Origin: Dasania marina DSM 21967
Lineage (GTDB): Bacteria; Pseudomonadota; Gammaproteobacteria; Pseudomonadales; Dasaniaceae
Direction: 5' to 3'
NCBI RefSeq assembly: GCF_000373485.1
Contig: NZ_KB891576.1
Span: forward strand, 62,001 to 126,000
DNA length: 64,000 nucleotides
Shown here: positions 10,069-55,099 of the stretch, one piece after another
Layout of the letters: each line of letters begins with the position of its first letter
Position numbering within the stretch: position 1 is the first letter of the stretch
Notes under the pieces: generated by a model
Database searches by the model: none
What the model was told of the DNA's origin: nothing
Seen by the model: only the letters and a program-made list of their open reading frames with translations
Translations under genes and position numbers: made by a program

Positions 10069-12189
10069 TTAGATCGCTGATTTAAAGCCCTCACCCTCTG
10101 CCGCCATACGCCGCAGTAATGGCGCTGGCTGCCAATATAAAGACCCTTGCGAAGCATGGAACTCTTCAACACGTTTCAGCACATTTATTAAACTCACTGT
10201 TTCGGCATAATAAATCGGCCCACCTCGATAACGAGGAAAACCGTAGCCATTAGCCAAAATCAAGTCAATATCTGACGGCCTCTGGGCAATACCCTCTTCT
10301 AGCAAGTGGCACGCCTCATTAATAATTGTATAGAGTAATCGCTCGACAATTTCTTTCGCCTCTAGCTTGCGTTGCGGCACACCAAGATGTTTAGCTTCAG
10401 CGACTATTAAGTGCTCTACCGCTGGGTCCACATCACGTTGCCGCGTCTTTGGGTCATAGCTATAAAAGCCAGCACTGCTTTTTTGGCCTAAACGCCCCTG
10501 CTCAACCAAAACATTGCCAATATGAAAATAACAGGGATCATCGGGCAAGTCGGTACGTGCTTGCCGCGCTTTGTAGCCTATGTCTAACCCTGCCATATCC
10601 AGCACTGACAAGGGGCCCATAGCCATTCCCCAATCCACCATCGCTTGATCCACTTGCGATGGCGTCGCCCCTTCTAGCAATAGCATCTGCGCCTCACGAC
10701 AATAGGCGCTAAATAAACGGTTACCAACAAAACCATAACCAACGCCCACCAAGGCCGTTACTTTGCCGATTTTTTTACCTAATTGCATAACCGTAGCAAT
10801 AACGTCGTCACTGCTGTGTTCGCCACGTACCACTTCCAACAATTTCATAATATTGGCAGGGCTGAAAAAATGCATACCAATCACATCTTCAGGTCGCTGG
10901 GTAAAAGCCGCTATTTTGTTCAGATCAAGATATGAAGTATTGCTGGCCAATATCGCTCCAGGCTTACAAACTCTGTCCAGCTCTTGAAACACTTGTTTCT
11001 TTACTTCCAGCGATTCAAACACAGCCTCAACAACGAGGTCAACGTCGGCCAGTTCGTCATAGTTCAAGCATCCCTTAATTAGAGAGAGTCTTTGCTCTAC
11101 CTGGCTTTCTGTCATACGTCCTTTTTTAGCACTGTCACGGTAATTTTTATCGATGGTCGCAAGCCCCCGCTCCAACGCGGCTGATTGCGCCTCTAGCAGC
11201 GTGACCGGAATACCAGCATTAGCAAAACACATCGTGATACCAGCGCCCATAGTACCGGCACCAATCACTGCAACTTTCGCTACCGAACGCGGTTGCACCG
11301 TTTTATCCAAATCGAGAATTTTGGTCGCCTGCCGCTCAGCAAAAAACTGGTAACGTAAGGCCTTAGACTGAGGCGAAGTCATGCACTCTAAAAACAGTTC
11401 GCGTTCACGCTTTAGACCTTCTAATAGAGACAACTGAGTAGCCGCTTCTACCGCGGACACAATACAGTGCGGCGAAAGGAATCCGCGGTAGCGCTTAGCT
11501 ACTCGCTCCCTAGTATCAGCAATTAACTGGGCCGTATCGCTGTTGCACTCTATAGCCAGCTCACCTGTACGCCGAATGGGGTTTGTTGCCCCTACGCCTT
11601 CATCGATCAGCTGATTAGCAAATTGCAGGGCGCCATCGAGTAAATTATCATTCACCACCCGATCAATTATTCCTATCTCCAATGCTTTTTGAGCCGCTAC
11701 TGGCTTACCATTGAGTATCATTTCCATAGCCTTCTCAACGCCGACTAACCGTGGCAAACGCTGGGTGCCCCCGCCTCCAGGCAACAATCCTAGGTTAACC
11801 TCGGGTAATCCCATGCTGGCCGATGATAGCGCACAACGGTAATGACAAGCTAAAGCCACTTCCAAACCACCCCCTAAAGCAGTTCCGTGTATAGCAGCGA
11901 CAATCGGTTTAGCTGAACCTTCCAGCGCAGCTAACACTTCAGCTAAAGCTGGACTTTGTGGCGGCTTGCCAAATTCTTTAATATCAGCCCCAGCGATAAA
12001 GGTTTTGCCTTTGCAGTACAGTACGATGGCCGCCACGTCATCGGAGTGCGCCTGCTCAATTGCCCCCAGAATACCGCCACGTAATGCCTGCGACAAAGCG
12101 TTTACCGGCGGGTTATCCAGTTGAATCACACCAACCCTATCTTGTTTATAATAATCAACGACTGTCACTATAGGATCCTTGTTAAACAT
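10069..12189 (-). CDS. Fused enoyl-CoA hydratase / 3-hydroxyacyl-CoA dehydrogenase (FadB/FadJ-like)
   Basis: A 706-residue bifunctional beta-oxidation enzyme. The N-terminal crotonase domain (about 1-190) keeps both catalytic glutamates, E110 in GGGLEVAL and E130 in LPEVNLG, with the oxyanion loop at AGADIKEF. The C-terminal dehydrogenase has the NAD motif GAGTMGAG (310-317), the catalytic His at 440 in GMHFFSPAN, and two C-terminal helical domains. It would hydrate an enoyl-CoA and oxidise the 3-hydroxyacyl-CoA. It is the last gene of a thioesterase-thiolase-FadB run (17 bp after the thiolase), inside the aromatic-CoA island, so a ring-derived dicarboxylyl-CoA is a likelier substrate than a plain fatty acyl-CoA. 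Its exact physiological substrate is inference. The start could be a few codons downstream. Confidence 0.93.
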   Translation of the reverse strand: MFNKDPIVTVVDYYKQDRVGVIQLDNPPVNALSQALRGGILGAIEQAHSDDVAAIVLYCKGKTFIAGADIKEFGKPPQSPALAEVLAALEGSAKPIVAAIHGTALGGGLEVALACHYRCALSSASMGLPEVNLGLLPGGGGTQRLPRLVGVEKAMEMILNGKPVAAQKALEIGIIDRVVNDNLLDGALQFANQLIDEGVGATNPIRRTGELAIECNSDTAQLIADTRERVAKRYRGFLSPHCIVSAVEAATQLSLLEGLKRERELFLECMTSPQSKALRYQFFAERQATKILDLDKTVQPRSVAKVAVIGAGTMGAGITMCFANAGIPVTLLEAQSAALERGLATIDKNYRDSAKKGRMTESQVEQRLSLIKGCLNYDELADVDLVVEAVFESLEVKKQVFQELDRVCKPGAILASNTSYLDLNKIAAFTQRPEDVIGMHFFSPANIMKLLEVVRGEHSSDDVIATVMQLGKKIGKVTALVGVGYGFVGNRLFSAYCREAQMLLLEGATPSQVDQAMVDWGMAMGPLSVLDMAGLDIGYKARQARTDLPDDPCYFHIGNVLVEQGRLGQKSSAGFYSYDPKTRQRDVDPAVEHLIVAEAKHLGVPQRKLEAKEIVERLLYTIINEACHLLEEGIAQRPSDIDLILANGYGFPRYRGGPIYYAETVSLINVLKRVEEFHASQGSLYWQPAPLLRRMAAEGEGFKSAI

Positions 12190-12205
12190 TTTATTTAGCT
12201 AATTT

Positions 12206-13414
12206 TTATACGCGCTCAATCACTAGCGCAATACCTTGGCCCATGCCGATACACATGGTGGCCAAACCGTAGCGACCGCCACTAAGCTCTAGCTGACGCA
12301 ATGCCGTTAGCATAATTCGTGCACCAGAAGCACCCAAAGGATGGCCCATTGCAATAGCGCCACCGTTGGGGTTCACCCTACTGTCATTGCTAGCTACGCC
12401 CATCTGCTGTAAACAACCTAGCGCTTGCGCAGCAAATGCTTCATTCAATTCAATAACGTCCATATCAGCTAAGGACAAGCCAGCGCGAGCCAGTGCTTTA
12501 CGGGATGCCTCTACCGGCCCCAAGCCCATTATGCGAGGTTCAATTCCGCTGATAGCCCCGGTTAATATTCTTCCCCTAGGAAGCAACTCGCATTTCTCTC
12601 CAGCAGATAATCCACCCAGCAACAAGGCTGACGCGCCATCGTTAATGCCAGAAGCATTACCGGCGGTGACAACGCCGGAGGCGAACATGGGGTTTAAGTT
12701 AGAAAGTTTTTCAAAGGTGGACTCTGGCCTGGGGTGCTCATCCTTATCGACAAGTATGGCCGGGTTGTTGCGTCCACGGCCTACCTCGACGCCGATAATT
12801 TCTCCTTCGAAATAACCCGCTTCAAAAGCACGCTGATATTTAGCTTGTGAATCTGCAGCGAAGCGGTCACAGGCTTCACGGCCAATCGCCAACTCCCGCG
12901 CTACATTTTCAGCGGTTTCTGGCATGCTATGGTCACCGAATGCAGCTATCAAATCGGGGTTTGGAAAGCGTGTGCCTATGGTCGTATCAAATACACTCAC
13001 GTCACGACTGAATGCTTTTTCCGCCTTGGCCATCACAAACGGCGCCCGACTCATGGATTCAACACCACAAGCCACATAAAAATCCCCTTCACCACAACGC
13101 AATGCCCTTGATACGTCCAATACCGCAGCCAAACTACTACCACAAAGCCTATTAACCGTTTGCCCACCCACAGTAACGGGTAGGCCCGATAACAGGCCTG
13201 CCATTCTCGCCACATTACGGCAGTCTTCCCCCGCCTGATTTGTGGCACCGGCTATGACTTCTTCTATAAATGGTGCGACTTGTGGATGGCGCTCAATCAA
13301 CTTACGAATAGTAAAGCCTAATAAGTTATCCGCGCGTAGCGGGGCTAAAACTCCCCCGTGACGGCCAAAAGGGGTACGGAGCCCGTCGTATATATATGCA
13401 GATTCAAGAGACAT
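12206..13414 (-). CDS. Acetyl-CoA acyltransferase (thiolase; beta-ketoadipyl-CoA-thiolase-like)
   Basis: A 402-residue degradative thiolase with all catalytic residues: the acyl-accepting Cys at 91 (NRLCGSSLAAV), His at 358 (GHPLGASGAR), Cys at 388 (MCIGMGQG), and the NEAFAAQ motif. It cleaves a 3-oxoacyl-CoA with CoA to acetyl-CoA and a shortened acyl-CoA in the cytosol. Resemblance to the beta-ketoadipyl-CoA thiolase group (PaaJ/PcaF), together with its neighbours, suggests it handles a dicarboxylyl-CoA made after ring opening. It sits between the thioesterase and the FadB-like gene, all on the minus strand with short gaps, so co-transcription is likely. The ATG at 13414 starts MSLESAYIYDGLRTPFGR, the normal thiolase N-terminus. 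Confidence 0.95.
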   Translation of the reverse strand: MSLESAYIYDGLRTPFGRHGGVLAPLRADNLLGFTIRKLIERHPQVAPFIEEVIAGATNQAGEDCRNVARMAGLLSGLPVTVGGQTVNRLCGSSLAAVLDVSRALRCGEGDFYVACGVESMSRAPFVMAKAEKAFSRDVSVFDTTIGTRFPNPDLIAAFGDHSMPETAENVARELAIGREACDRFAADSQAKYQRAFEAGYFEGEIIGVEVGRGRNNPAILVDKDEHPRPESTFEKLSNLNPMFASGVVTAGNASGINDGASALLLGGLSAGEKCELLPRGRILTGAISGIEPRIMGLGPVEASRKALARAGLSLADMDVIELNEAFAAQALGCLQQMGVASNDSRVNPNGGAIAMGHPLGASGARIMLTALRQLELSGGRYGLATMCIGMGQGIALVIERV

Positions 13415-13455
13415 TTTTCCACCAGAAATAAATTAAGACATTGTGAGAGCTTTTA

Positions 13456-13878
13456 TTAATCCGTTAAAAACTCGGCCATACGCTCACGCAGAGGGGCCGG
13501 GATAGAGATACTTTTTCCTTCGTTGTTACCAGAGGTATAGACCAACACATTCTGGGATTTGAGTACGGGCACACCATTATTAAACGCTTCAATTACCAGT
13601 GTAATCGAACCCCGCCCCAGCTTGTGAACCACCAATGTGAAATCCAGGATATCACCCATACGACTAGGAGATGAAAACTCACATTCAATCTTAACTGTCG
13701 GAACACCATCGTTACGTTCTATTATCAAATGAGTAAACGACCAATCAAGGGCAGATGCAAACCACTCTTCCACCACGGCATTAATCATCTCAAAATAGCG
13801 GGGGAAAAATACTATCCCGGCCGGATCACAGTCAGCGAAACGCACGGGTAACTTAATGTTAAACGTTTTATTAGTCAT
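13456..13878 (-). CDS. Acyl-CoA thioesterase, 4-hydroxybenzoyl-CoA thioesterase family
   Basis: A 140-residue hotdog-fold thioesterase. The active-site motif FADCDPAGIVFFPRYFE places the catalytic Asp at 18, the same motif and position type as Pseudomonas 4-hydroxybenzoyl-CoA thioesterase (Asp17). Aryl-CoA thioesterases of this kind often accompany CoA-dependent aromatic pathways, where they release CoA from stalled or excess thioesters. In this island a proofreading or overflow role on anthraniloyl-CoA or a related aryl-CoA is inferred. It is the first gene of the thioesterase-thiolase-FadB run and has a 14-bp perfect palindrome just upstream. Confidence 0.9.
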   Translation of the reverse strand: MTNKTFNIKLPVRFADCDPAGIVFFPRYFEMINAVVEEWFASALDWSFTHLIIERNDGVPTVKIECEFSSPSRMGDILDFTLVVHKLGRGSITLVIEAFNNGVPVLKSQNVLVYTSGNNEGKSISIPAPLRERMAEFLTD

Positions 13879-14283
13879 TTACATACCTCTCCACTTTACA
13901 GATAAATATCGATATTTTAGAAAAAAATAATGCAACATTGTATCAATAACGCTACGTCTTTAAATAATGTTTACAGGTAAGCTCTACACAGCGAAGCTGT
14001 TGCGCCTTTAATTCTACGCCGTCCATAACAGTGCAAGTATAATAAAGAGACGATAAGCAACGGCTTACTTATGTTATTCGCGCAGCTCATAATGACCTAA
14101 AAAAGATAGAGCTAGCGTTTATAAAAGTTACCACCACCATTTGCCACAAACGAATAGCAGCCAGCACAGCTGCTCCGCATGAAAACCCTAAAATAAAAGT
14201 CTATAAGCTATGGTCGCTATACCGCTTTCAATAATCGGAGCCTAATGGCAGTGATAAACGACTAGACACCGATACCTCGCTGT
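13879..14283. other. Intergenic region inside the catabolic island
   Basis: About 400 bp between the iorB-like gene and the thioesterase. It probably holds the promoter of the thioesterase-thiolase-FadB run, with the palindrome at 13904-13917. No coding region is supported. Around 14195-14215 a short stretch (AGTCTATAAGCTATGG, then TCGCTAT) resembles an arm of the palindromic element at 6446-6528 and may be a decayed copy. Confidence 0.45.
13904..13917. promoter_or_regulatory. 14-bp perfect palindrome upstream of the thioesterase gene
   Basis: AAATATCGATATTT is a perfect dyad 26 bp before the thioesterase ATG. Its AATATC/GATATT core resembles the inner arms (AATATCTT/AAGATATT) of the large dyad at 21336-21383. 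A regulator site is plausible, but short AT-rich palindromes also occur by chance. Confidence 0.35.
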
Positions 14284-15783
14284 TTAGGCTAATGCCTTTG
14301 CCAGCGCCTTGCCATCATCATCCGCTAGCGCAGCTTCTCGCCATAGTGCTACCGTAGCCGCAGGCGTTTGCGAAGACTGTTCGACACGAGTCAGAATTGT
14401 CTTCAATTGACGACTGGTACGTGAACGGGTTTCCCCGTAACCCTTGATTAAGCGCCCGCATTCGGCCAACTCTAGTGCCTGTTCAAACTGTCCTCGGGTA
14501 GCAGCGTTGCGTACTTCCTGCAACCAGACACTGAACAAAGCATATTCTTCGGAGTATGCGAGACTACTTCGACGCCAACGCCTCATGCCGGCAAGTAATC
14601 GCATCACCAGAAACACACTTACTGTATTGGTACGCAGCTTCTTGCCATTGGTAAAGCGACTCATCAGCGCCGAAACTATTTTGGAAGACTGCATACGACG
14701 CCCTAAACTAGCTGGCAGCATGCCACAGAATTCCTCAATTCTCGGCCGGAAAAAATCGGTTATATGTATTAATTGATCCGGATCGGCCTTGACCTCTTCA
14801 CGTACTTTTTCCATCCGCGTAGCGCGAGTTTTCAACTGCGCCACCCTGGGCACATCTTCAAAACACATCCAGAGCGAGAGATATCGGGCGGTCTCACGCG
14901 TCAAGGCAGAGTCTTCAAAACCGTTATCGAGGTCGCGAACAGCTTCCATTTCCAGTAAAAACTGTCTAGCGTAATCATAATCCTGATAGTCAACAAGCTT
15001 CACCAGCGCATGGTACATAGTTTCACGACAGGACTCAGGGAAGTCGTCCAAACGGGCCAGTAGTTTGCCTCCCTCAGCCGTCTTGGCTTTTTTGAGTACG
15101 GTGAAAACGTCTGGGGATACGGCTGAAACTTCAGGCTCAAACTGTTGTACTCCACCAGCGCTGGCTGCTTCGTAACTGGCGTGAAAAGCCGCAAGATTAG
15201 TTTTGACAGCCTTACCGGTTGCTTCGATCACCGCCACATAACTTGCTTTAGCAAACGGCAACACACCGGCCCCTGCCAGAGCACCCAACATAACCGAAGA
15301 GATCACTGAATTATGCTGTCTAGCCAACTCAGCCATATCGAAATGAATATACTCACGAGCATAACGCCCGGCGATTGCCTGCACTGTTTCAGGATCAATA
15401 GTACCGTCACCCAGATTTATCTTCTCCGTGATACCGTAAACCCGGTGATCAGACGCAATCAGGGCTGTACGATCAGGGGTAACAAAACCGCGCTGCACCA
15501 GACGCCCGGCTTCGGCCACCTCGGATGCAATGGCAATGTCTATATCACCCTGCGCGGGAAATAATGACATGACAGGCTGTGTTCCTTCTGGAATATCTGC
15601 ACGGGGAAACATTTCCAAGTAATAAATCGTAGCACCTGTACGCTGCGCAACACCGGCCAGAAAGGTACTTTGGCATAACCAGTTTTCGCGATCTGCTACG
15701 TCAATCACCCAATTAGTTAATACACCGCCACCCTCTCCACCGAGAGCGGCAATAACCATATTTATAGTGCTATCTCTGCTCAT
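14284..15783 (-). CDS. Indolepyruvate-oxidoreductase-type beta subunit with long C-terminal extension (IorB-like)
   Basis: This pairs with the IorA-like gene. The N-terminal 200 residues are the gamma-type 2-oxoacid:ferredoxin oxidoreductase domain (IAALGGEGGGVLTNWVIDVA, then AGVAQRTGATIYYLEMFP and IASEVAEAGRLVQRG). About 280 further residues form a helical, basic extension of the kind found in the IorB family often labelled DUF6537, with no obvious cofactor motif. I choose the ATG at 15783, not the GTG 45 bases upstream: it overlaps the IorA stop as ATGA and has GGGAG 9 bases before it. The complex decarboxylates an aryl-2-oxoacid to an aryl-CoA. In this context isatinate (2-aminophenylglyoxylate) is a strong candidate; indolepyruvate is the default alternative. 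Confidence 0.88.
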   Translation of the reverse strand: MSRDSTINMVIAALGGEGGGVLTNWVIDVADRENWLCQSTFLAGVAQRTGATIYYLEMFPRADIPEGTQPVMSLFPAQGDIDIAIASEVAEAGRLVQRGFVTPDRTALIASDHRVYGITEKINLGDGTIDPETVQAIAGRYAREYIHFDMAELARQHNSVISSVMLGALAGAGVLPFAKASYVAVIEATGKAVKTNLAAFHASYEAASAGGVQQFEPEVSAVSPDVFTVLKKAKTAEGGKLLARLDDFPESCRETMYHALVKLVDYQDYDYARQFLLEMEAVRDLDNGFEDSALTRETARYLSLWMCFEDVPRVAQLKTRATRMEKVREEVKADPDQLIHITDFFRPRIEEFCGMLPASLGRRMQSSKIVSALMSRFTNGKKLRTNTVSVFLVMRLLAGMRRWRRSSLAYSEEYALFSVWLQEVRNAATRGQFEQALELAECGRLIKGYGETRSRTSRQLKTILTRVEQSSQTPAATVALWREAALADDDGKALAKALA

Positions 15784-17960
15784 AGGGATTTCACTCCCTG
15801 TATATTTTCTTCTTTCGTCTGCAACCAACCGATCACAGTTTGCCGTACTTTACCTAACATACGATCGCGCCACCCTGGATTGTAAATCAAATCTACCCTA
15901 GAAAATGAAGGGCAAAGTACTGCGGTATGAACGTTCTCACCACAAACACCACAACCCACACAACTATTATCAACGTAAGAAACCGGGTCTTTACGCAGCG
16001 GGTCTGGGTTTGCTTTGATAGTAAGAGAGGGGCAACCCGAAAGGCGAATACAAGCGTGATCACCGGTGCAGGTGTCACTATCAATAACAAAACGCGCCCG
16101 CAACGTTCGCTTGCCTTCAGCGACCGAGCGTTTCATCAGCGGCTTGATCCGCCGCTGACGATTTAACATACATTCACCCTCAGCAATCACAACTTTTAAA
16201 CCTTCTTGCGGCGTAGTGAGCGCCTCACGCAAGGTGTCTTTCATCGCCTCAATATTGTAAGTGCTCACGGTGCGAATCCAATTCACGCCTGCGCCACGGC
16301 AAGCAGCTTCAATAAACTGCGGATGCTCACGGTTATGACTGTCAGTATCCATGGTCGTCGCGATGATTTTATTAGGCTCTACTATAGATGGAATATCCTG
16401 CCCGCCGGTTGCTGCTGCATAACCATTATTAACAATAATCAACAAGCCATCGTGCTTATTGAACACGGCACTGGTCACACCGCTGGTCAATCCGTTATGC
16501 CAAAAACCCCCATCCCCCATAATACTAATGGCTTTGTGAGGCAGAGTATGGCGAATACCAGAGGAGCTGGCCAAAGACAGGCCGTAGCCCATAATGGTAT
16601 TCCCTAGATTAAACGGTGCTAGGGTAGCGAATGAATGACAACCGATATCCGAGCTAATGTGGAACGGACCAATCTCTTCCTGTAGCTGTTTTACTGCAGA
16701 GAATAAAGGCCTTTCTGGGCACCCCGTACACAAACCGGAAGGCCGAGGCGGAACGTTAGCCAGCAACTCTTGCTGATCCTGCTCTGACAGCGGAGTTTCC
16801 ATCTCGGCTACCCGCTCACTGCTTAATGTAGGCGTAAGGCCAGCGGCTTCCATAAAGCGAGCTAAGCCGAGCAGCATTACTTGGCCAGTATATTCTCCCG
16901 CCATTGGCATTATGTCTTTGCCGAAAATCCGAGTCTGTATATCCTGACGTCGCAGCACGGTGTTAATACCTTGCTCCACGTATTCTGGCTGACCTTCCTC
17001 CAACACCAAAATTTGCTTTTTATCGGCGCAGAAACGAACCAACTCATCCGGCACCAATGGATAGGCAACATTCATCACATAGATAGGAATATCTGACTTG
17101 CCCATTACGTCAGACATACCCTGCCGCTGTAGCGCCCTAATCAATGTGTTGTAACAGCCGCCCTGAACGATAATACCGATATCCTGATGTTTGCCAGGGA
17201 AAAACTCGTTGAGCGCATGTTCTTGAATAAATTGTCTTGCCGCAGGCAATCGTGAAGATATTTTTTCCTGCTCTTGGGCGTAAATATTCGGCGGCAGAAT
17301 GATTTTTTCCGCCTCGCGGTTAGGCGTCACAGTATTAGTCTTATTGTACTTCGGTGATTTGTTATCACTGGCGATAAACTCTCCAGAGACGTGACAACCA
17401 CGAATACGCATCATAAAAAATACTGGCGTATTGCTAGCCTCAGATAACTCAAAACCTTTTTCTACCAAGTTGACAATGCTTGGCAAATTAGGCCTTGGGT
17501 CTAATAGCCACATTTGCGCTTTCATGGCAAAGGCATAGGTTCGCTCCTGCATGATGCTGGAGCCCTCACCATAGTCTTCGCCAACGATGACCAATGCTCC
17601 GCCGGTCACACCGGAAGATGCTAGGTTAGACAACGCATCGGACGCAACATTGGTACCTACCGTCGACTTCCAGGTAACAGCACCACGTAAGGGATAGTTA
17701 ATAGAGGCGCTTAGCATAGCTGCAGCCGTAGCCTCGCTACCCGCAGCTTCAAAATGCACACCCAACTCACCCAAAATTTCTTGCGAGTCGCTGAGCACAT
17801 CCATCAATGCAGATATCGGCGCCCCTTGGTAACCGCTGACATAAGACACGCCAGACTGCAGCAACGCTTTAGTGATGGCGAGAATGCCTTCACCTTTAAA
17901 CACGTCACCTTCACCGGCACGTAGTTTTAGGACTTCTTGAGAAAACGAACGTTCAGCCAT
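15780..17960 (-). CDS. Indolepyruvate-oxidoreductase-type alpha subunit (IorA-like, TPP and Fe-S)
   Basis: A 726-residue thiamine-diphosphate-dependent 2-oxoacid oxidoreductase subunit. The N-terminal pyrimidine-binding domain contains GYQGAPISALMDVLSD and FEAAGSEATAAAMLSASI. The TPP-binding domain is at about 478-515 (MGDGGFWHNGLTSG, then VNNGYAAATGGQ). A C-terminal ferredoxin-like domain is at about 627-690 with CVGCGVCGENVH and LCPSF; the other half has only three spaced cysteines (CTGDHACIRLSGCP), fewer than a classic two-cluster domain. It oxidatively decarboxylates an aryl-2-oxoacid and, with CoA, yields an aryl-CoA. It lies 6 bp after the cyclase and overlaps iorB by 4 bp, so all three are one transcript. 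The cyclase product isatinate is an aryl-2-oxoacid, which fits. Confidence 0.92.
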   Translation of the reverse strand: MAERSFSQEVLKLRAGEGDVFKGEGILAITKALLQSGVSYVSGYQGAPISALMDVLSDSQEILGELGVHFEAAGSEATAAAMLSASINYPLRGAVTWKSTVGTNVASDALSNLASSGVTGGALVIVGEDYGEGSSIMQERTYAFAMKAQMWLLDPRPNLPSIVNLVEKGFELSEASNTPVFFMMRIRGCHVSGEFIASDNKSPKYNKTNTVTPNREAEKIILPPNIYAQEQEKISSRLPAARQFIQEHALNEFFPGKHQDIGIIVQGGCYNTLIRALQRQGMSDVMGKSDIPIYVMNVAYPLVPDELVRFCADKKQILVLEEGQPEYVEQGINTVLRRQDIQTRIFGKDIMPMAGEYTGQVMLLGLARFMEAAGLTPTLSSERVAEMETPLSEQDQQELLANVPPRPSGLCTGCPERPLFSAVKQLQEEIGPFHISSDIGCHSFATLAPFNLGNTIMGYGLSLASSSGIRHTLPHKAISIMGDGGFWHNGLTSGVTSAVFNKHDGLLIIVNNGYAAATGGQDIPSIVEPNKIIATTMDTDSHNREHPQFIEAACRGAGVNWIRTVSTYNIEAMKDTLREALTTPQEGLKVVIAEGECMLNRQRRIKPLMKRSVAEGKRTLRARFVIDSDTCTGDHACIRLSGCPSLTIKANPDPLRKDPVSYVDNSCVGCGVCGENVHTAVLCPSFSRVDLIYNPGWRDRMLGKVRQTVIGWLQTKEENIQGVKSL

Positions 17961-17966
17961 CTGTCA

Positions 17967-18758
17967 TTATCTCCCGGGTACCAGTGCAAGAACGCGTGAA
18001 GGGCTACCTGACCCTCCGCGTATTTTGAGCGGCGCGGCAATAATTATTGCACCCGTAGCCGGTAATTGATCAAGATTACAAAGACTCGCGAGACCACATT
18101 TATTGGCTCCATGCATCAGATTGTGACAGGGGAACATCGGATCTTGAACGGGAGCTTGGCCCGCATCTGTGCCTACGGTTTCTACCCCTACCCCTGCTAT
18201 ATCACGCTCTGTGGTAAGAAAAGTAACCGTGGCTGGATCCCAACCTGGTGTGTGGCCACCATCCTCACGCATGCCTAAGTATTCGTCACTGTCCATTTTT
18301 TTGGACCAGTCAGTGCGGTACAACACCCAGGCGCCTTTGGGGATTTCACCATGCTTGGCCTCCCACGCCTTAATAAAATCGACATCCATTAAGAAATCAG
18401 GATCAGCCGCAGCTTCTGCCACCGCGTCAATCACAACTGCAGGTGCTACAAAACTTTTTAGTGGTAGCGTCTCAGTGGTGTTATTTTCAAGATCTTTACC
18501 CGACACCCAGTGGATAGGGGCGTCAAAGTGGGTGCCTGTGTGCTCCCCGCACTTTAAATTATTCCAGTACCACGCAGGGCCTTTGTCGTTGTAACGGGAG
18601 ATAGTCTCAATACTAAACGGCCAGGATTCTCCCCAACCAAAATCAGTTGGCAACTGCAGAGTAGGAGTACCTGGATGCAGCGTAGCAGTGAGATCTAGAA
18701 TGCGAATGCTTCCATCCAACAGACCTAGTGCAACGGTTTCCAATATGGAATTACTCAT
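17967..18758 (-). CDS. Isatin-hydrolase-like metal-dependent cyclase-family hydrolase
   Basis: A 263-residue member of the cyclase / kynurenine-formamidase-like fold. The metal motif GEHTGTHFDAPIHW puts H73, H77 and D79 at the positions I recall for the Mn-binding residues of the Labrenzia isatin hydrolase, with H83 as a further candidate catalytic residue. Other stretches also look like that enzyme from memory: AADPDFL, IKAWEAKHGEI, VGTDAGQAP and IIIAAPLKI. It would hydrolyse the amide ring of isatin to isatinate in the cytosol. The length matches isatin hydrolase and exceeds KynB (about 210). It is first in a cyclase-iorA-iorB transcript with GAGGAAAT before the ATG. An N-formylkynurenine or other cyclic-amide substrate is the alternative. 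Confidence 0.87.
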   Translation of the reverse strand: MSNSILETVALGLLDGSIRILDLTATLHPGTPTLQLPTDFGWGESWPFSIETISRYNDKGPAWYWNNLKCGEHTGTHFDAPIHWVSGKDLENNTTETLPLKSFVAPAVVIDAVAEAAADPDFLMDVDFIKAWEAKHGEIPKGAWVLYRTDWSKKMDSDEYLGMREDGGHTPGWDPATVTFLTTERDIAGVGVETVGTDAGQAPVQDPMFPCHNLMHGANKCGLASLCNLDQLPATGAIIIAAPLKIRGGSGSPSRVLALVPGR

Positions 18759-18787
18759 ATTATTTCCTCGGTTATTGTATTAGGTAT

Positions 18788-18809
18788 CCGTATAGCAGCA
18801 GCTATACGG
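18788..18809. promoter_or_regulatory. Hairpin in the leader of the cyclase gene
   Basis: Arms CCGTATAGC (18788-18796) and GCTATACGG (18801-18809) form a perfect 9-bp stem with a 4-base loop, ending 30 bp before the cyclase ATG. There is no T-run, so it is not a terminator; it may be an operator, or an RNA stem that sets relative expression of the genes on either side. Another inverted repeat (TATCATG/CATGATA) lies at 18835-18863. Confidence 0.4.
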
Positions 18810-18946
18810 TCTTCGCCAAAACGAGCAACATCGGTATCATGTACGCAACGCAAGCTCATGATATTTCATTACATCCATTTTATTTTGACCCCTAACATAG
18901 CTAGGGGGTGTTTCGGTTATAGTAACCGTTAAAAAAAGTGTTATTG

Positions 18947-21295
18947 CTACTCTTTATAATGACGCTTTGGTTTGGCTTTCCGCTGTAGTTGCAGCTGCGT
19001 TTCACGCGCCTTACCTAATACGCTGTACGCCTGCTGCTGGCCAGACAGATATTGATGTTCCCAACCCTGATCGTCCTTAACCCCATAGCTAGCCGCCGCC
19101 TGTCGGGTAAAATACGGATTCCATAAATGCGGGCGCCCTATCGCTACCAAGTCAGCACGACGAGTATGCAGAATAGTATTTATTTGTGCCGCGTCGCTAA
19201 TACTGCCAACAGTCATGGTCGCCATCTTCTTAACATTGCGAATGGCCTCAGAGAACTCCACCTGGAACATACGGCCATAAATAGGCTTTTGATCGGATAC
19301 CGTCTGCCCTGCAGAAACGTCAATCAGATCACAGCCCGCATCGCTAAAGGCTTCGGCAATAGCAAACGTATCGGCTTCAGTGATACCACCTTCTTTCCAA
19401 TCAGAGGCCGAAATTCGCACCGACATGGGCTTGGATTCTGGCCAAACTTCGCGCATAGCGTTAAACACCAGCAACGGAAACCGCAGACGGTTTTCTACAC
19501 TACCACCAAACTCATCGCTACGCTGATTGGTCAACGGTGACAAGAAACAAGCTAACAAGTAACCATGCGCACAGTGAAGCTCTATCATGTCAAAGCCTGC
19601 GCGATCTGCCCGCTGCGTAGCAGCACGAAAATCGTCAACAATCCTATCCATGCCTGCTTGATCCAGCTCTTGGGGCACCTGCGAGATGCCATCAAAATAC
19701 GGGATTGGAGAGGCTGAACACAGCGGCCAGTTTTTATCCGTCGTCTCGATTGGCATATCCATTTTTTCCCAGCCCAGCTGAGTTGACCCCTTGCGACCAG
19801 AGTGTCCCAACTGCATACACATTTTGGTATCGGTATGCTCATGAGCAAAGTCGACAATGCGCGCCCACTGGGATTCTTGTTCATCCGTCCACATACCTGG
19901 GCAACCAAGGGTGATTCGCGCATCTGGTGAGGGGCAGGTCATCTCGGTATAAACCATCCCCATCCCGCCAGTGGCATGGCCAGAATAATGTACCAGATGC
20001 CAATCGGTGAGGTTACCGTTTTCATCCGCCGAGTATTGTGCCATAGGCGACATAACCACGCGGTTGCGCAATTCCATCTCACGGAGTTTGAATTTAGTAA
20101 ACATCGGGGTCGGTCGACTGTCACGGTAATCGTAACCTGTCTCTTGGAAGTAGCGTTGGTACCACTCGGTATCGACTTTTTCCACAAATTTAGAGTCACG
20201 CAAAATCAGATTGTCATAAGTAACAGACTTTGCCCGGCACATCACTACCATGGCAAATTGCATGGTCTCCATATCCCAGGAACGGTCCATGTGTTCAAAC
20301 CAAGACAGGGATACGTCGGCATTATGCTGCACGATTTGGGCGGGCACTCGGCGTAACTGATCATACTTCCGAAAAACCTTCTCCACACTCTCGTCTGCAT
20401 GTTCGATTACCGCATCGTGCAGACCAATGGCACACTCCATAGCCAGCTTCGTGCCTGAACCAATTGAAAAATGCGCCGAAGCCTTGGCGTCACCGAGAAT
20501 AACAATGTTTTTATAATGCCAATTATTGCAAAAAATACGTGGGAAATGTCGCCACAGAGAGCGATTCAGTATCAGCGAATGCCCCTCAAGCTCTTCGGCA
20601 AAAATAGCCTCCAGCTTTTGCTTGGAATCCTCCTCATTAACTTCTTCAAAACCCCAACCCTGCCAGCACTCGTCAGACATTTCAAATACCCAGGTAGATT
20701 TCCCTGGTTCGTATTGGTAGGTGTGAGCACAGATCAAACCGTGTTCGGTTTCTTTAAAGAAATAGGTGAAATCTTTCAGCGGACGAGTAGAGCCCATCCA
20801 ACAGAATCGATTGGACTTCATCACCGTGCTAGGTTTGAAGTGATCCTTATAATATTCACGAATCGGTGATGCGATACCATCGGCAGCTAAAATAATGTCA
20901 GAATCGGCAAATTGCATTTCCAGATCTTCCGGATTAATACGAGCTTCAAACGTCATCTTAACGCCAACCTCACGGCATCGCTCTTGCAACATAGTCAGTA
21001 ATCCGACCCGAGAAATCCCACAGAAGCCATTACCCTCGCAACGAACCTCTTCGCCCTTACGCTGGATAACAATATCATCCCAGTAGGCGAATTTGTCGCG
21101 GATACGCTCGTAAGATTCCAAATCCCGGGACAAGAATTCATCCAATGTTTCATCGGAAAAAACCACCCCAAAACCAAAAGTGTCATCAGCGCGGTTTTGC
21201 TCAAAGAGCTCGATTTCCCAATCGGGCTGCGCTTTTTTGGTTAGCAGCGCAAAATACAAGCCCCCCGGGCCACCACCAATTACTGTAATTTTCAT
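18947..21295 (-). CDS. Bifunctional aryl-CoA monooxygenase/reductase (anthraniloyl-CoA monooxygenase type)
   Basis: A 782-residue fusion. The N-terminal FAD hydroxylase domain (about 1-380) starts MKITVIGGGPGGLYFALL with GxGxxG at residues 7-12 and has the second FAD motif GDAKASAHFSIGSG. The C-terminal half (about 397-745) is an Old Yellow Enzyme domain: MFTKFKLREMELRNRVVMSPM, QLGHSGRKGS, ELHCAHGYLLACFLSPLTN. This matches 2-aminobenzoyl-CoA monooxygenase/reductase of Azoarcus evansii, which hydroxylates anthraniloyl-CoA at C5 and reduces the ring to 2-amino-5-oxocyclohex-1-enecarboxyl-CoA. The ATG at 21295 is chosen because GAGGAGA precedes it and the FAD motif begins there. It diverges from marR across a large dyad. 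Salicylyl-CoA 5-hydroxylases share this fusion and are the main alternative. Confidence 0.9.
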   Translation of the reverse strand: MKITVIGGGPGGLYFALLTKKAQPDWEIELFEQNRADDTFGFGVVFSDETLDEFLSRDLESYERIRDKFAYWDDIVIQRKGEEVRCEGNGFCGISRVGLLTMLQERCREVGVKMTFEARINPEDLEMQFADSDIILAADGIASPIREYYKDHFKPSTVMKSNRFCWMGSTRPLKDFTYFFKETEHGLICAHTYQYEPGKSTWVFEMSDECWQGWGFEEVNEEDSKQKLEAIFAEELEGHSLILNRSLWRHFPRIFCNNWHYKNIVILGDAKASAHFSIGSGTKLAMECAIGLHDAVIEHADESVEKVFRKYDQLRRVPAQIVQHNADVSLSWFEHMDRSWDMETMQFAMVVMCRAKSVTYDNLILRDSKFVEKVDTEWYQRYFQETGYDYRDSRPTPMFTKFKLREMELRNRVVMSPMAQYSADENGNLTDWHLVHYSGHATGGMGMVYTEMTCPSPDARITLGCPGMWTDEQESQWARIVDFAHEHTDTKMCMQLGHSGRKGSTQLGWEKMDMPIETTDKNWPLCSASPIPYFDGISQVPQELDQAGMDRIVDDFRAATQRADRAGFDMIELHCAHGYLLACFLSPLTNQRSDEFGGSVENRLRFPLLVFNAMREVWPESKPMSVRISASDWKEGGITEADTFAIAEAFSDAGCDLIDVSAGQTVSDQKPIYGRMFQVEFSEAIRNVKKMATMTVGSISDAAQINTILHTRRADLVAIGRPHLWNPYFTRQAAASYGVKDDQGWEHQYLSGQQQAYSVLGKARETQLQLQRKAKPKRHYKE

Positions 21296-21335
21296 AAATT
21301 GTCTCCTCAATATATAAACCGCACCTATATGCAAA

Positions 21336-21383
21336 TATATTACAGGATAATATCTTACATGCAAGATATTAAACTGTAATATA
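21336..21383. promoter_or_regulatory. Nested 48-bp dyad operator between the monooxygenase and marR
   Basis: Outer arms TATATTACAG (21336-21345) and CTGTAATATA (21374-21383) and inner arms AATATCTT (21349-21356) and AAGATATT (21363-21370) are exact inverted repeats sharing one centre at 21359.5. The block lies 41 bp before the monooxygenase ATG and 130 bp before marR, the expected place for a MarR operator controlling both directions. The outer half-site (ATATTAC) recurs at 23477. Confidence 0.75.
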
Positions 21384-21512
21384 CCTCCTTGTGCGTTTTA
21401 TATTGCAGACTATCGGCCAACCCTTATAATCGCGTGAAAAACACCGCAGCGGCTTGCGCTACAATAGTCCCCCGCCCCTTGCACTACAACCCTGAACTGG
21501 ACAACGACTTTC

Positions 21513-21995
21513 ATGGAAAAACTAAAAAACCTGCAAATGGACGAGATGGATACTACCTATGTAAAACTCTGGTTGCTGCTAGCTAAGAACTCCAAAGCTA
21601 TTGAGCAGGAAATGGAGGCCCGCTTTCACAGAAACTTCAAGCAAAGCATGTCACGATTTGACGTTTTGTCTCAGCTGGACCGTTCCGATCCTGAATGGCT
21701 CCCTGTCGGCAAGCTAGCCAAAAAACTCATTGCCTCCAAGGGTAATATTACTCGTTTGGTAGATCGCATGATCGACGAGGGCTTAATCGACCGACGCGCC
21801 AGCCCTGAAGACCGCCGCATCATCCACCTTGGGCTCACCACCAAAGGACGCGAACTGTTTGTCGAAATGGCCATAGCGCACGCCGAATGGGCAAAGTCCA
21901 TGTTGGATAGCTTGGACCCAGAACACACACAACAGCTGCTGGCTCTATTAAATGAACTTAAAAAAACACTCAATGTGTCTAACAGCAACACATAG
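21513..21995 (+). CDS. MarR-family transcriptional regulator
   Basis: A 160-residue winged-helix regulator. Helical dimerisation segments flank the DNA-binding domain: MSRFDVLSQLDR, VGKLAKKLIASKGNITRLVDRMIDEGLI (recognition helix), then the wing SPEDRRIIHLGLTTKGREL. MarR proteins are usually repressors released by small aromatic or aryl-CoA ligands; several regulate aromatic catabolic operons through CoA thioesters. Its position, divergent from the monooxygenase with a 48-bp nested dyad between them, marks it as the probable local regulator of this island. An upstream in-frame stretch exists, but the ATG at 21513 (MEKLKNLQMDEMDTTYVKLW) gives the normal family length. Confidence 0.93.
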   Translation: MEKLKNLQMDEMDTTYVKLWLLLAKNSKAIEQEMEARFHRNFKQSMSRFDVLSQLDRSDPEWLPVGKLAKKLIASKGNITRLVDRMIDEGLIDRRASPEDRRIIHLGLTTKGRELFVEMAIAHAEWAKSMLDSLDPEHTQQLLALLNELKKTLNVSNSNT

Positions 21996-22093
21996 ACGGC
22001 AGGCAACAGGCCGCTAGAGCTTCAAAACATATGCCTATGATCAACTGAAAGCCTGTCTACAGGCGTTCAAATAACTCATTATTCCAGCAGCCC

Positions 22094-22855
22094 CTACATG
22101 ACCTCTCCGCCAGCTACCGCAATTGCTTGTCCGGTAACTGCCGAGGCCCCTGGCGAACATAACCACATAACTGCACTAGCAACCTCCTCAGGCTGCACAA
22201 GACGCCCCTGTGGATTGGATTGTGTTAACTCTGCAAGCGCTTCCTTTTCACTACGCCCGGTTTTCTCTACGATATTCTTTATAGAATCACGCACCAACTC
22301 AGTATCAGTATAGCCCGGGCAAACAGCGTTCACGGTTATGCCTTTAGTCGCAGTTTCCAAAGCCAAAGAGCGGGTCAACCCCAAAACACCATGTTTGGCG
22401 GCGCAGTAAGCAGCAACATAACCGTAGCCCTTCAAAGCTGCCGTACTGGCAATATTAATGATTCGCCCCTCACCGGATTCGCGCATCTGTTTAAGCGATT
22501 CCCGGCAACAATAAAAAACACCGTTAAGATTGACCGCCATCATTTGTAACCAATGCTCGTCATCCATTTTATGAACAGGCGAGGTATGAGCCTGGCCAGC
22601 GTTGTTGATCATAATATCTATAGGGCCAAACACTTCTTTCGCCTGATTGAATGCCGCTGTTACGCAATCGCTTTGCGTGACATCTAAGGCTATAGCTTGA
22701 GCTTGGGGCAGCTGACTCGCTTTTTCCTGCAGCGGCGCCAATGTACGCCCCATCAAAGTTACTCTAGCCCCTTCTTTAGCTAGCGAATCGACTATGGCAG
22801 CCCCTATCCCCTTACCGGCGCCGGTGACTACTGCGTGTTTGCCTTTTAACAACAT
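22094..22855 (-). CDS. Short-chain dehydrogenase/reductase (3-hydroxyacyl-CoA-dehydrogenase-like)
   Basis: A classical SDR of about 253 residues. It has the cofactor motif TGAGKGIG (11-18), NNAG (84-87), and the catalytic S137, Y150 and K154 (YCAAK). No Arg is visible after the first glycine motif's second strand except GRT at 36-38, so NADP use is possible but undecided. The ATG at 22855 starts MLLKGKHAVVTGAG, a natural SDR beginning; the open frame extends 9 codons upstream to a TTG. In this island it probably oxidises or reduces the oxo/hydroxy group on the dearomatised ring CoA ester. It is convergent with marR, about 100 bp away. Azoarcus aminobenzoate clusters also carry an SDR, as I recall. 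Confidence 0.9.
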   Translation of the reverse strand: MLLKGKHAVVTGAGKGIGAAIVDSLAKEGARVTLMGRTLAPLQEKASQLPQAQAIALDVTQSDCVTAAFNQAKEVFGPIDIMINNAGQAHTSPVHKMDDEHWLQMMAVNLNGVFYCCRESLKQMRESGEGRIINIASTAALKGYGYVAAYCAAKHGVLGLTRSLALETATKGITVNAVCPGYTDTELVRDSIKNIVEKTGRSEKEALAELTQSNPQGRLVQPEEVASAVMWLCSPGASAVTGQAIAVAGGEVM

Positions 22856-23631: not shown

Positions 23632-24459
23632 ATGAGCACAAAGAACAACTTAGAGCCGACGTCTTTTACGCCCAAACATTTCCTTTGGAACTATGACAAT
23701 GGCCTAGCCACCATCACCTTAAATATCCCCGAGCGCAAAAACCCACTTACCTTTGACTCTTACGCCGAACTGCGTGACACCTTCCGTGACCTGGTGTACT
23801 GCAGAGAGGTAAAAGCAGTGGTAATTACTGGGTCTGGTAACAACTTTTGCTCTGGCGGAGATGTGCACGACATCATCGGCCCTCTGACCAAAATGGATAT
23901 GCGCGAACTGCTGGACTTTACCCGTATGACTGGCGATCTAGTCAAGGCCATGCGTCACTGCCCGCAACCTATACTAGCTGCCGTGGACGGGATATGCGTC
24001 GGCGCCGGCGCCATTATCGCCATGGCCAGCGATCTACGCTACGGTACCGAAAACAGCAAGGTTGCTTTTCTTTTTACTCGCGTTGGCTTGGCCGGCTGCG
24101 ACATGGGTGCCTGCGCAATACTGCCACGCATAATCGGCCAAGGGCGCGCTTCGGAACTCCTCTATACCGGCCGTATTATGCGCGCCCCCGAAGCTGAACG
24201 GTGGGGGTTTTTTAATCGCCTATGCAGCCCTGAATCCATTTTGGAAGAAACTCAAGCCGTTGCTCGAGATCTAGTGGCAGGCCCGACCTTTGCCCACGGA
24301 ATTACCAAGACCATGCTTCATCAAGAGTGGAATATGGGTATCGATCAGGCTATTGAAGCCGAAGCTCAGGCGCAAGCTATCTGCATGCAAACTGCAGATT
24401 TCGAGCGCGCTTATCAAGCGTTTATCAATAAAGCCTCCCCTCTTTTTGAAGGCAACTAA
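23632..24459 (+). CDS. Crotonase-family enzyme (enoyl-CoA hydratase/hydrolase-like)
   Basis: A 275-residue crotonase. The oxyanion region ([11 protein letters not shown], about 71-81) and [19 protein letters not shown] (120-138) are clear. The two glutamates of classical enoyl-CoA hydratase are not at their usual places (A-I-I at the first, R150/D157 region at the second), so plain hydration is uncertain. A ring-opening C-C hydrolase role, as in BadI-type crotonases, is possible for a cyclic 2-oxo-carboxyl-CoA, and is inference. The ATG at 23632 follows AGGAG by 8 bases and is preferred to the TTG at 23602. It is followed 16 bp later by the acyl-CoA dehydrogenase, so it heads the plus-strand operon. 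Confidence 0.9.
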
Positions 24460-24475
24460 TTTTTGGGTGTAACAG

Positions 24476-25657
24476 ATGACAGAACAACAGACCATAGACA
24501 AAAGCTATTTACAATGGCCTTTTTTGGCGGACAACCACCGCCAGCTGGCCGATGACATCGAAAACTGGGCACAGCAACATGTAGACTCAGCCCCCCACGG
24601 AGACATCGATGTCGACTCAGAATGCATAAAATTGGTGCGCCAATTAGCTGCGGGGGGGATCTTGGCCCACTCAGTTGCTCAGCGCCAATCTGGCGAAAAG
24701 CTCGATGTAAGAAGTATGTGCCTAATACGCGAAACACTTGCTCGCCACTCCGGCCTAGCGGATTTCGCCTTCGCTATGCAGTGCTTAGGCAGTGTACCCA
24801 TCAGCCTTTTTGGTAATGACGCGCAACAACAACAATACCTAACAGCGGTTCGTGCCGGAAACAATATTGCCGCTTTCGCCCTAACAGAACCCGAAGCAGG
24901 TTCCGACGTAGCCGCGATGAGCACCGCTGCCGTGCGCAAAGGCAACGATTATGTGCTTAGTGGCGAAAAGACCTTTATTTCCAACGGCGGAATCGCCGAT
25001 TTCTACATCGTTTTTGCCCGCACTGGCGGCGCCGGCGCCAAAGGGATTAGCGCATTTATTCTCGATGCCGACACGGTTGGGCTGGAAATCGTAGAGCGCA
25101 TCGAAACCATCGCGCCTCACCCATTGGCCCGCCTTAAATTTAACGACTGCCTCATGCCAGCGAGCAAGCGACTAGGTGAAGAAGGCGAAGGCTTCAAGAT
25201 CGCCATGGCCTCCTTGGATACTTGCCGCTCTACCGTAGGTGCCGCAGCTCTTGGGTTTTCCCGACGCGCGCTGAGCGAGGCCCTGCAACGTACCGGCAGC
25301 CGTAAACTGTTTGGCGAACCGATGATCAAGATCCCTGGTGTGCAGACGCAACTAGCGGAAATGGCATTAAATATCGATACCAGTGCCCTACTGATCTATC
25401 GCGCCGCCTGGGAAAAGGACTGCAATTCTGATCGAATTACCCGCGAAGCGGCCATGGCAAAATTACATGCCACAGACTCTGCTCAGAAAACCATCGATGC
25501 CGCGGTCCAACTGTTTGGCGGTTTGGGCGTAACCAAAGGCGTCAAAGTTGAAGAACTTTACCGCGACATTCGCGCCTTGCGGATCTACGAAGGGGCCTCT
25601 GAAGTGCAGAAATTAATCATCGCACGGCAGACACTACTAAACGCGGGCATGATCTAA
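24476..25657 (+). CDS. Acyl-CoA dehydrogenase
   Basis: A 393-residue FAD-dependent acyl-CoA dehydrogenase with the three-domain ACAD order. Marker motifs are ALTEPEAGSDVAAM and SGEKTFISNGGIADFYIVFART in the middle domain, and IYEGASEVQKLIIAR at the C-terminus with the probable catalytic base E372. It would oxidise a saturated acyl-CoA to the 2,3-enoyl-CoA and pass electrons to electron-transfer flavoprotein. Placed between a crotonase and a Rid protein, it likely acts on a dicarboxylyl- or alicyclic-CoA from the opened ring. The 393-residue length is normal for the family. The ribosome site before the ATG is weak, so coupling to the upstream gene is possible. Confidence 0.94.
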   Translation: MTEQQTIDKSYLQWPFLADNHRQLADDIENWAQQHVDSAPHGDIDVDSECIKLVRQLAAGGILAHSVAQRQSGEKLDVRSMCLIRETLARHSGLADFAFAMQCLGSVPISLFGNDAQQQQYLTAVRAGNNIAAFALTEPEAGSDVAAMSTAAVRKGNDYVLSGEKTFISNGGIADFYIVFARTGGAGAKGISAFILDADTVGLEIVERIETIAPHPLARLKFNDCLMPASKRLGEEGEGFKIAMASLDTCRSTVGAAALGFSRRALSEALQRTGSRKLFGEPMIKIPGVQTQLAEMALNIDTSALLIYRAAWEKDCNSDRITREAAMAKLHATDSAQKTIDAAVQLFGGLGVTKGVKVEELYRDIRALRIYEGASEVQKLIIARQTLLNAGMI

Positions 25658-25721
25658 AGTAACAAACTCACGCCTACTGCTAGGCCGCCATCATTAAACG
25701 ATAACCACACGGAAAAACACC

Positions 25722-26141
25722 ATGCAGATAATTCAACCCGAAGGCTGGAAACAACCCAAAGGCTACTCCAACGGAATTTTGGCCGAAGGCAAAACCCTCT
25801 ATATCGGCGGACAAATCGGCTGGGACATCAACGAGCAATTCCAGAGTGACGACTTTGTCCAGCAAGTCCATCAAACACTGCTTAATACGGCCGCCATATT
25901 GAAAGCCTCTGGCGCAGGGCCTGAACACATAACCCGTATGACTTGGTATATTACCGATAAACAAGCGTACCTTAGCTCGGCTAAAGAAGTGGGGCGAGTT
26001 TACCGAGATGTGATTGGCCGAAATTTTCCTGTTATGGCCATGGTGCAAGTGGTAGCCCTGATGGAAGATCAAGCGAAAGTAGAAATAGAAACCACAGCCG
26101 TCATTCCACATGACAATACTAAGGAACAGCACCCCAGTTAA
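25722..26141 (+). CDS. Rid-family (YjgF/YER057c/UK114) protein lacking the key arginine
   Basis: A 139-residue Rid-fold protein: GILAEGKTLYIGGQIGWDIN, then FVQQVHQTLLNTAAILKASGAGPEHITRMTWYITD and KVEIETTAVIP. In archetypal RidA the arginine of FPARS (Arg105) is needed to hydrolyse enamine/imine intermediates. Here the segment reads NFPVMAMVQV with Met at that position, so it belongs to another Rid subgroup whose chemistry is less certain. Its place at the end of the crotonase-ACAD operon suggests a role with the amino-cyclohexene (enamine) intermediate made from anthraniloyl-CoA. Similar small proteins sit in Azoarcus aminobenzoate clusters, as I recall. Confidence 0.9.
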   Translation: MQIIQPEGWKQPKGYSNGILAEGKTLYIGGQIGWDINEQFQSDDFVQQVHQTLLNTAAILKASGAGPEHITRMTWYITDKQAYLSSAKEVGRVYRDVIGRNFPVMAMVQVVALMEDQAKVEIETTAVIPHDNTKEQHPS

Positions 26142-31267: not shown

Positions 31268-31322
31268 AGTCAGCGATCTCTAAAACAATAAAAAAGAAAA
31301 GGTCATTACACATAAGTAAAAA

Positions 31323-31343
31323 GGGGCAGCCTGTGGCTGCCCC
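31323..31343 (-). terminator. Terminator or attenuator between guaB and guaA
   Basis: The stem GGGGCAGCC/GGCTGCCCC with a 3-base loop is followed on the minus strand by five T residues (31318-31322). It starts 10 bp after the guaB stop and 50 bp before the guaA ATG, so it should reduce read-through from guaB into guaA. Confidence 0.75.
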
Positions 31344-31352
31344 TGCTACTGT

Positions 31353-52619: not shown

Positions 52620-52673
52620 AAAGCCTCCTAACAGATTTTTAACATTATTATTAAGCGCTTGTTTAAGACATCA

Positions 52674-53855: not shown

Positions 53856-53874
53856 CGCGTTTGCTTCCCGTTTA

Positions 53875-54999: not shown

Positions 55000-55039
55000 T
55001 TTGCGCCTTCCTATAATCGTTTATGTAAGAAAAATAAGA

Positions 55040-55062: not shown

Positions 55063-55099
55063 CCTTCCCCTCCATGTGGGAGTCGGAGGGAAATTCCTC

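Follow-up and report, generated by a model that had tools for sequence, protein, structure and literature searches.

Organization of the catabolic block

Our analysis of a 64,000-nucleotide stretch of the Dasania marina DSM 21967 genome (4.1 Mb; contig C2, positions 62001-126000; hereafter the window) revealed twelve catabolic genes at 10069-26141, located between tadA (6534-7019) and guaBA (29687-32822) and flanked by genes that look unrelated on reading of their open reading frames (ORFs). All the enzymes named in a preliminary description of this block are encoded in it by twelve open ORFs, identified by Pfam and NCBIfam. Among them are a predicted isatin hydrolase of the cyclase family, the two subunits of a 2-oxoacid oxidoreductase (IorA and IorB, together IorAB) and a fusion protein of the 2-aminobenzoyl-CoA monooxygenase/reductase (ACMR) type. 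The features of the block are as follows.

10069-12189, minus strand: crotonase-3-hydroxyacyl-CoA dehydrogenase fusion, FadJ-like, 706 aa (PF00378+PF02737+PF00725; under the FadJ/FadB cut-offs)
12206-13414, minus strand: thiolase, 3-oxoadipyl-CoA thiolase-like (NF006001 618.8 bits, cut-off 622)
13456-13878, minus strand: 4HBT-type acyl-CoA thioesterase (PF13279; homologues adjoin IorAB or cyclase in loci L004, L049, L062 and L078)
14284-15783, minus strand: IorB, 2-oxoacid:acceptor oxidoreductase beta subunit (POR+DUF6537; NF006179 580.5 bits, cut-off 348; 4-base overlap with IorA)
15780-17960, minus strand: IorA, thiamine pyrophosphate (TPP) and Fe-S alpha subunit (PF02775; TIGR03336 283.9 bits, under the cut-off of 650.9)
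17967-18758, minus strand: predicted isatin hydrolase (PF04199 cyclase; 59% and 54% identical to a pair of isatin hydrolases of known structure)
18947-21295, minus strand: ACMR-type fusion (FAD_binding_3+Oxidored_FMN; ATG at 21295)
21348-21371, no strand: 24-bp palindrome, candidate MarR operator, between ACMR and MarR (11/12 bp self-complementary)
21513-21995, plus strand: MarR-family regulator (PF01047)
22094-22855, minus strand: short-chain dehydrogenase/reductase (SDR) of the aminobenzoyl-CoA (abm) module (PF00106; ATG at 22855)
23632-24459, plus strand: crotonase-fold enzyme of the abm module (ECH; NF006107/PRK08258 489 bits, cut-off 330; ATG at 23632)
24476-25657, plus strand: acyl-CoA dehydrogenase (ACAD; family models; homologues at 55% identity in the two abm clusters of Aromatoleum evansii)
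25722-26141, plus strand: Rid-superfamily protein with Met at the position of the RidA catalytic Arg (TIGR00004 57.9 bits, cut-off 106)

The search queries for ACMR started one codon upstream of its ATG; the longest ORF of the crotonase starts with TTG at 23602, and its profile query began at 23641. The genes form two divergent arms, of which the minus-strand arm covers 10069-21295 plus the SDR gene and the plus-strand arm 23632-26141 plus the MarR gene, the SDR gene lying between MarR and the plus arm. The minus arm runs in the order ACMR, isatin hydrolase, IorA, IorB, thioesterase, thiolase and crotonase/3-hydroxyacyl-CoA dehydrogenase with gaps of 188, 6, -4, 405, 41 and 16 bases, and the crotonase, ACAD and Rid genes of the plus arm are separated by 16 and 64 bases.

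Isatin hydrolase

The cyclase aligns with isatin hydrolases of solved structure at E 5e-100, the closer of the two identities being that to 5nmp (59%) and the other that to 5nnb (54%). The signature of isatin hydrolases, given in PMC6117287 as metal ligands, a WxW/FxW pocket and a GLQC or GLAS motif, is complete in the window cyclase, with the Mn ligands HxxxHxD at H73, H77 and D79, the WxW pocket at W63 and W65, and GLAS at 222-225. The five metal and pocket residues are invariant in all 95 rows of aligned homologues (a few rows being the same gene fetched twice), and residue 224 varies, being Ala in 45 of them and Gln in 49. The metal and pocket residues are also common to the solved enzymes (PDB 4j0n, 5nna, 5nnb and 5nmp; presumably the enzymes from Labrenzia and Ralstonia described in PMC6117287); no sequence difference from these was found, and the window enzyme has the GLAS variant, which is attributed to LaIHB. 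Identity to the solved enzymes and the full residue signature thus bear out the earlier identification of the cyclase, which is predicted to hydrolyse isatin to isatinate. Kynurenine formamidase, which it resembles only distantly, was rejected as its identity (TIGR03035 34.7 against a cut-off of 223).

ACMR and the aminobenzoyl-CoA module

The fusion protein is 45% identical over 771 columns to an ACMR of A. evansii, the organism whose ACMR has been characterised. This identity and the domains of the protein, an FAD monooxygenase fused to an OYE-type reductase, uphold its assignment to the ACMR type. It is an outlying ACMR, which on a quick ACMR tree groups with rows from Sphingomonas and Robiginitomaculum in a clade of their own. 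ACMR, SDR, crotonase, ACAD and Rid recur together as the abm module, and SDR homologues of 44-63% identity adjoin ACMR in our samples of the order (194 genomes) and the class (369 genomes). The two A. evansii abm clusters (L160, L161) both contain ACMR, SDR, crotonase, ACAD, Rid and MarR at 35-62% identity to the window, and both carry a benzoate-type CoA ligase. In contrast to them, the window cluster is missing the CoA ligase and has instead isatin hydrolase and IorAB, along with the additional crotonase-dehydrogenase fusion and thiolase. The A. evansii ACMR is cited in PMC3534580, where anthranilate-grown Arthrobacter is reported to contain anthraniloyl-CoA and a CoA ester that is possibly cyclohexanedione-carboxyl-CoA.

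The Rid protein of the preliminary description is present in the block, with the catalytic Arg of RidA replaced by Met. Met occupies this position in 42 of 42 aligned rows, window included (some genes occur twice, and rows were chosen at >=45% identity), whereas three aligned PDB Rid homologues have Arg (NFPAR). The RidA arginine is catalytic in imine deamination, and the window protein, which does not possess it, is therefore not a canonical imine deaminase; speculatively, it may act by another mechanism on the enamine thioester made by ACMR. Two MaoC-like hydratase genes stand beside the module in the gammaproteobacterial loci L010 (14481-15465), L164 and L139, and the window cluster does not have them.

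IorAB and the proposed pathway

The cysteines 631, 637, 643, 667, 670, 673 and 683 of IorA are kept in 48-49 of 49 aligned rows. The subfamily of the window IorA occurs in seven of the 194 order genomes, all of which also have isatin hydrolase, as a fragment in G164 (Fisher 4e-12). An additional argument for a role of IorAB in this catabolism comes from B. japonicum, in which iorA is induced 30.7-fold and iorB 7.6-fold by indole-3-acetic acid (PMC3788728). The papers on the iad loci of auxin degradation, PMC9613470 and PMC12633357, describe isatin, isatinate and anthranilate, and in their accessible parts assign no reaction to IorAB.

Isatin arises when indole and plant hormones are broken down. 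The block quite probably serves isatin catabolism through the hydrolase, IorAB leading to anthraniloyl-CoA, and then ACMR and beta-oxidation. Isatin hydrolase would open isatin to isatinate (2-aminophenylglyoxylate), which IorAB, with TPP and Fe-S, would decarboxylate oxidatively with CoA to anthraniloyl-CoA, CO2 and a reduced electron carrier, standing in for the 2-aminobenzoate-CoA ligase that ordinary abm clusters use at the expense of ATP. The ring would then be hydroxylated and reduced by ACMR to 2-amino-5-oxocyclohexene-carboxyl-CoA, and SDR, crotonases, ACAD, 3-hydroxyacyl-CoA dehydrogenase and thiolase may carry out deamination, ring opening and beta-oxidation, with MarR as the putative repressor of both arms. 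The identity of the hydrolase, the ACMR type, the absence of an abm-type ligase homologue and the conserved clustering are supported by sequence; the conversion of isatinate to anthraniloyl-CoA by IorAB, the sequence of reactions that follows ACMR and the regulation are inferred. The complete lower pathway of the preliminary description is plausible, although what IorAB catalyses and in which order the enzymes act after ACMR are conjecture.

Going beyond the window, we lean, by a modest preference, towards a new activity for the IorAB of isatin and auxin (iad) clusters, that of a CoA-acylating isatinate oxidoreductase of aerobes, which would produce anthraniloyl-CoA without ATP or free anthranilate and thereby connect, throughout the Proteobacteria, the catabolism of indole, auxin and isatin with the aminobenzoyl-CoA pathway.

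CoA ligases in genomes with ACMR

If IorAB supplies anthraniloyl-CoA, ACMR clusters with IorAB should need no ligase. No 2-aminobenzoate-type CoA ligase was seen in the D. marina genome, its best family match reaching 235 bits versus 352-383 for the ligases in the fetched ACMR neighbourhoods, and this absence supports the earlier suggestion of an entry into CoA chemistry without free anthranilate. Ligases were counted genome-wide at E 1e-90 or better, since those of the A. evansii abm clusters, at ~370 bits, narrowly miss the curated cut-off of 375 bits; the result for the order is identical under either threshold.

The order sample contains 13 genomes with ACMR, seven with the IorA subfamily, eight with a strong cyclase match (two of them fragments) and eight with the ligase. 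A strong cyclase occurs in 7 of the 13 ACMR genomes and in 1 of the 181 without ACMR (Fisher 7e-9, which ignores kinship); the latter is G164, whose fragmented assembly contains IorA and gives no ACMR match at threshold. None of the seven genomes with both ACMR and cyclase (D. marina, G000, and G003, G008, G047, G113, G135 and G140) has the ligase at E 1e-90, whereas all six ACMR genomes without a strong cyclase do (G073, G107, G131, G155, G181 and G184), a split with Fisher 6e-4 by genome and 0.029 by genus (4 v 4).

In the class sample, where cyclase and IorAB were sought solely in the 4-20 kb fetched around ACMR, 17 genomes have ACMR and 15 of these lie beyond the order set. Three of the added genomes have both sources of the CoA ester (G398; G284, with IorAB and no cyclase seen; and G407, with an IorB fragment), one has cyclase/IorAB only (G452), nine have the ligase only, and two, which are 71% and 84% complete, have neither. 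The 28 pooled ACMR genomes thus comprise 8 with cyclase/IorAB only, 15 with ligase only, 3 with both and 2 with neither (Fisher 0.003), and 26 of them possess one or more genes that could plausibly supply the CoA ester. The stretch fetched around ACMR contains no ligase in G107, G181, G317, G290, G410 and G283. A strict rule of ligase or IorAB is rejected by the three genomes with both; the mutual exclusion is a tendency. Outside these counts, the genomes of loci L003 (Haliea) and L025 (Sphingomonadales) have ACMR and no ligase at threshold.

Synteny and upper pathways

A search for conserved synteny was positive, the cluster of cyclase, iorAB and ACMR being conserved among relatives. It used 80 named loci fetched by cyclase from >577 candidates, and this set, unlike the order and class samples, is enriched for cyclase because of the way it was fetched. 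IorA or IorB is present in 60 of these loci, ACMR or its crotonase in 26 and at least two of three iad genes in 25; for the 55 loci of at least 20 kb the respective numbers are 48, 20 and 23. The iad set adjoins the cyclase-IorAB-abm set in L003 (Haliea), L010 and L013, and in L010 consists of a Rieske oxygenase (alpha and beta), an SDR, a DUF35 protein, a thiolase and an acyl-CoA synthetase. The iad genes also stand beside ACMR in G003 and G047, with cyclase-IorAB within ~30 kb, and a single A. evansii contig carries both abm genes with ligase (L160) and an iad locus with IorAB and cyclase (L038). Compared with the iad loci of Variovorax, Bradyrhizobium and Achromobacter, the window cluster has no acyl-CoA synthetase (iadF), and the reported end product of iad loci is anthranilate, not its CoA ester.

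In the Providencia loci L027 (7315-20776), L037 and L039 the isatin hydrolase is surrounded by genes for an SDR, a styrene-monooxygenase-type flavoprotein, a flavin reductase, an FAD amine-oxidase-like protein and a MetA-type porin, followed by IorA, IorB, thioesterase and ACMR (cut by the locus end), which suggests a route from indole to anthraniloyl-CoA. Two different upper routes, by iad and by the styrene-monooxygenase-type enzymes, therefore lead into one shared core, an argument that isatin is where they enter it. An ACAD-like neighbour in L009 (cluster c33) was tried as an indole monooxygenase and did not show as one.

The window itself is a mosaic, a further point in favour of the proposed pathway. 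Its cyclase is nearest to that of Haliea (76%), and equally to that of Exilibacterium, and its IorA is nearest to that of Haliea (79%), whereas its ACMR is nearest to that of Sphingomonas L015 (59%) and ~46% identical to that of Haliea, so that a Haliea-type IorA is combined with an ACMR of another clade. On the ACMR tree (46 rows) the presence of cyclase/IorAB requires 6 changes, with the neither-source rows left out.

The link to indole or indole-3-acetate made in the preliminary description is unsupported in the D. marina genome. No homologues of the iad dioxygenase or iad thiolase were found there with L010 queries (the closest matches were a partial one of 36% and one of 29%, and the search did not extend to indole oxygenases), and a canonical iad locus is rejected by this absence of IadDE and thiolase homologues. 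The Rieske cluster on contig C18 was rejected as iad by ORF reading; it comprises, at 441-15303 of L121, Rieske oxygenase, thiolase, CoA-transferase-like, muconate-cycloisomerase-like and intradiol-dioxygenase-like genes.

Alternative readings and points against the proposed pathway

Isatinate might instead be converted to free anthranilate, spontaneously or by IorAB with the thioesterase, and used elsewhere, ACMR being a neighbour fed by another ligase. Such a scheme would agree with anthranilate as the reported iad end product (PMC9613470, PMC12633357) and with the thioesterase gene beside IorB, and is made improbable by the lack of an abm-type ligase in D. marina and, at E 1e-90, in six other order genomes with ACMR and cyclase; besides, none of six scanned ring-dioxygenase alpha-subunit homologues (six of 8 matches) reaches an anthranilate dioxygenase cut-off. 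It is less likely still that IorAB acts on indolepyruvate to give indoleacetyl-CoA and that the cluster is a mix of unrelated steps. The nearest named families of IorAB are indeed indolepyruvate oxidoreductases, but IorA lies far under the equivalog cut-off of the indolepyruvate ferredoxin oxidoreductase alpha subunit (283.9 v 650.9), and among the order IorA matches at E 1e-40 or better outside D. marina six genomes with 59-77% identity all have isatin hydrolase, in one case fragmentary, and a seventh with 29% identity lacks it. We attach equally little credence to the fusion and lower genes handling some other aryl-CoA, e.g. salicylyl-CoA, with isatin opening as detoxification only. The NCBI family of the fusion is named salicylyl-CoA 5-hydroxylase/oxidoreductase, but this name is misleading here because both ACMRs of A. 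evansii fit the same model (PRK08255) well, with 1392 and 1383 bits, and ACMR is recurrently paired with cyclase-IorAB or a benzoate-type ligase.

Several observations weigh against the proposed route from isatin over IorAB to anthraniloyl-CoA. The window ACMR stays under the curated cut-off of PRK08255 (1003.9 vs 1078 bits), which is a working threshold and not a defining property of ACMR, and the absent iad homologues leave D. marina with no known source of isatin. The ligase is kept in 3 of the 11 sampled genomes with cyclase/IorAB and ACMR (two of them counted by IorAB or IorB alone, at contig ends), and A. evansii and Achromobacter deleyi likewise hold it. Locus L063 has two cyclases and a ligase together with iad and abm genes, and no IorAB in its 20.8 kb. 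The thioesterase encoded next to IorB could set anthranilate free. Work on Variovorax found anthranilate restored by a nine-gene iad region that does not include iadAB; when iadI is deleted, a gene annotated as kynurenine formamidase and by order and annotation the isatin-hydrolase homologue, C8H7NO2 accumulates (PMC12633357). As this is not isatin's formula, the authors of PMC12633357 suspect that the enzyme is an amidase of broad specificity, and they revise the early steps. The iadI result weakens isatin as the sole substrate of the iad hydrolase, and if C8H7NO2 is dioxindole, the hydrolase product would not be a 2-oxoacid. PMC6221969 also cites a view of isatin as a dead end in the iif route of indole, and counts what becomes of isatin, like the gene cluster for anthranilate, among the unanswered questions about how indole is degraded; the iif route leads to anthranilate via a dihydrodiol (PMC12538310).

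With these points taken into account, the catabolism of isatin through IorAB and anthraniloyl-CoA remains our preferred interpretation of the block, which is a ligase-free variant joining two known modules. A proposal of isatinate conversion to anthraniloyl-CoA was not found in the literature searched (few subscription papers), where isatin hydrolase and anthraniloyl-CoA never appeared together. Auxin-degrading loci, which protect plant roots, are marked by iadA and iadB, and their reported end product is anthranilate. If true, the proposed reaction would assign a role to IorAB, two subunits of known auxin-degradation loci, save the ATP of the ligase, prevent leakage of anthranilate and tie indole and auxin breakdown to the aminobenzoyl-CoA pathway through one step.

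Regulation and genomic context

The MarR gene diverges from ACMR across 217 bases (counted from the ATG of ACMR), within which the 24-bp palindrome lies; allowing 3 mismatches, no second copy of its central 20 bases was found in the window, nor any copy in 100 shuffles. A scan for promoters and terminators did no better than shuffles (15 v 23 and 22 v 19, respectively). A second palindrome (10/11 bp) is located at 18788-18809, between isatin hydrolase and ACMR.

Cyclase, IorA and ACMR were not found at the thresholds used in five sampled family members (the congener G099 and G068, G127, G152 and G174). In G099 tadA was not found within 19 kb of guaA, and an exact empty site was not demonstrated in that congener. 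The genes guaA and tadA are adjacent in two genomes of the same family (L165, L166) and 22.7 kb apart in the window; hence, judged from gene order, the catabolic block is likely an insertion between them. Elsewhere in the window, ORF reading at 50949-57421 showed a sulfatase, a major facilitator superfamily transporter, a histone-deacetylase-like hydrolase and a TonB receptor in a single minus-strand run.

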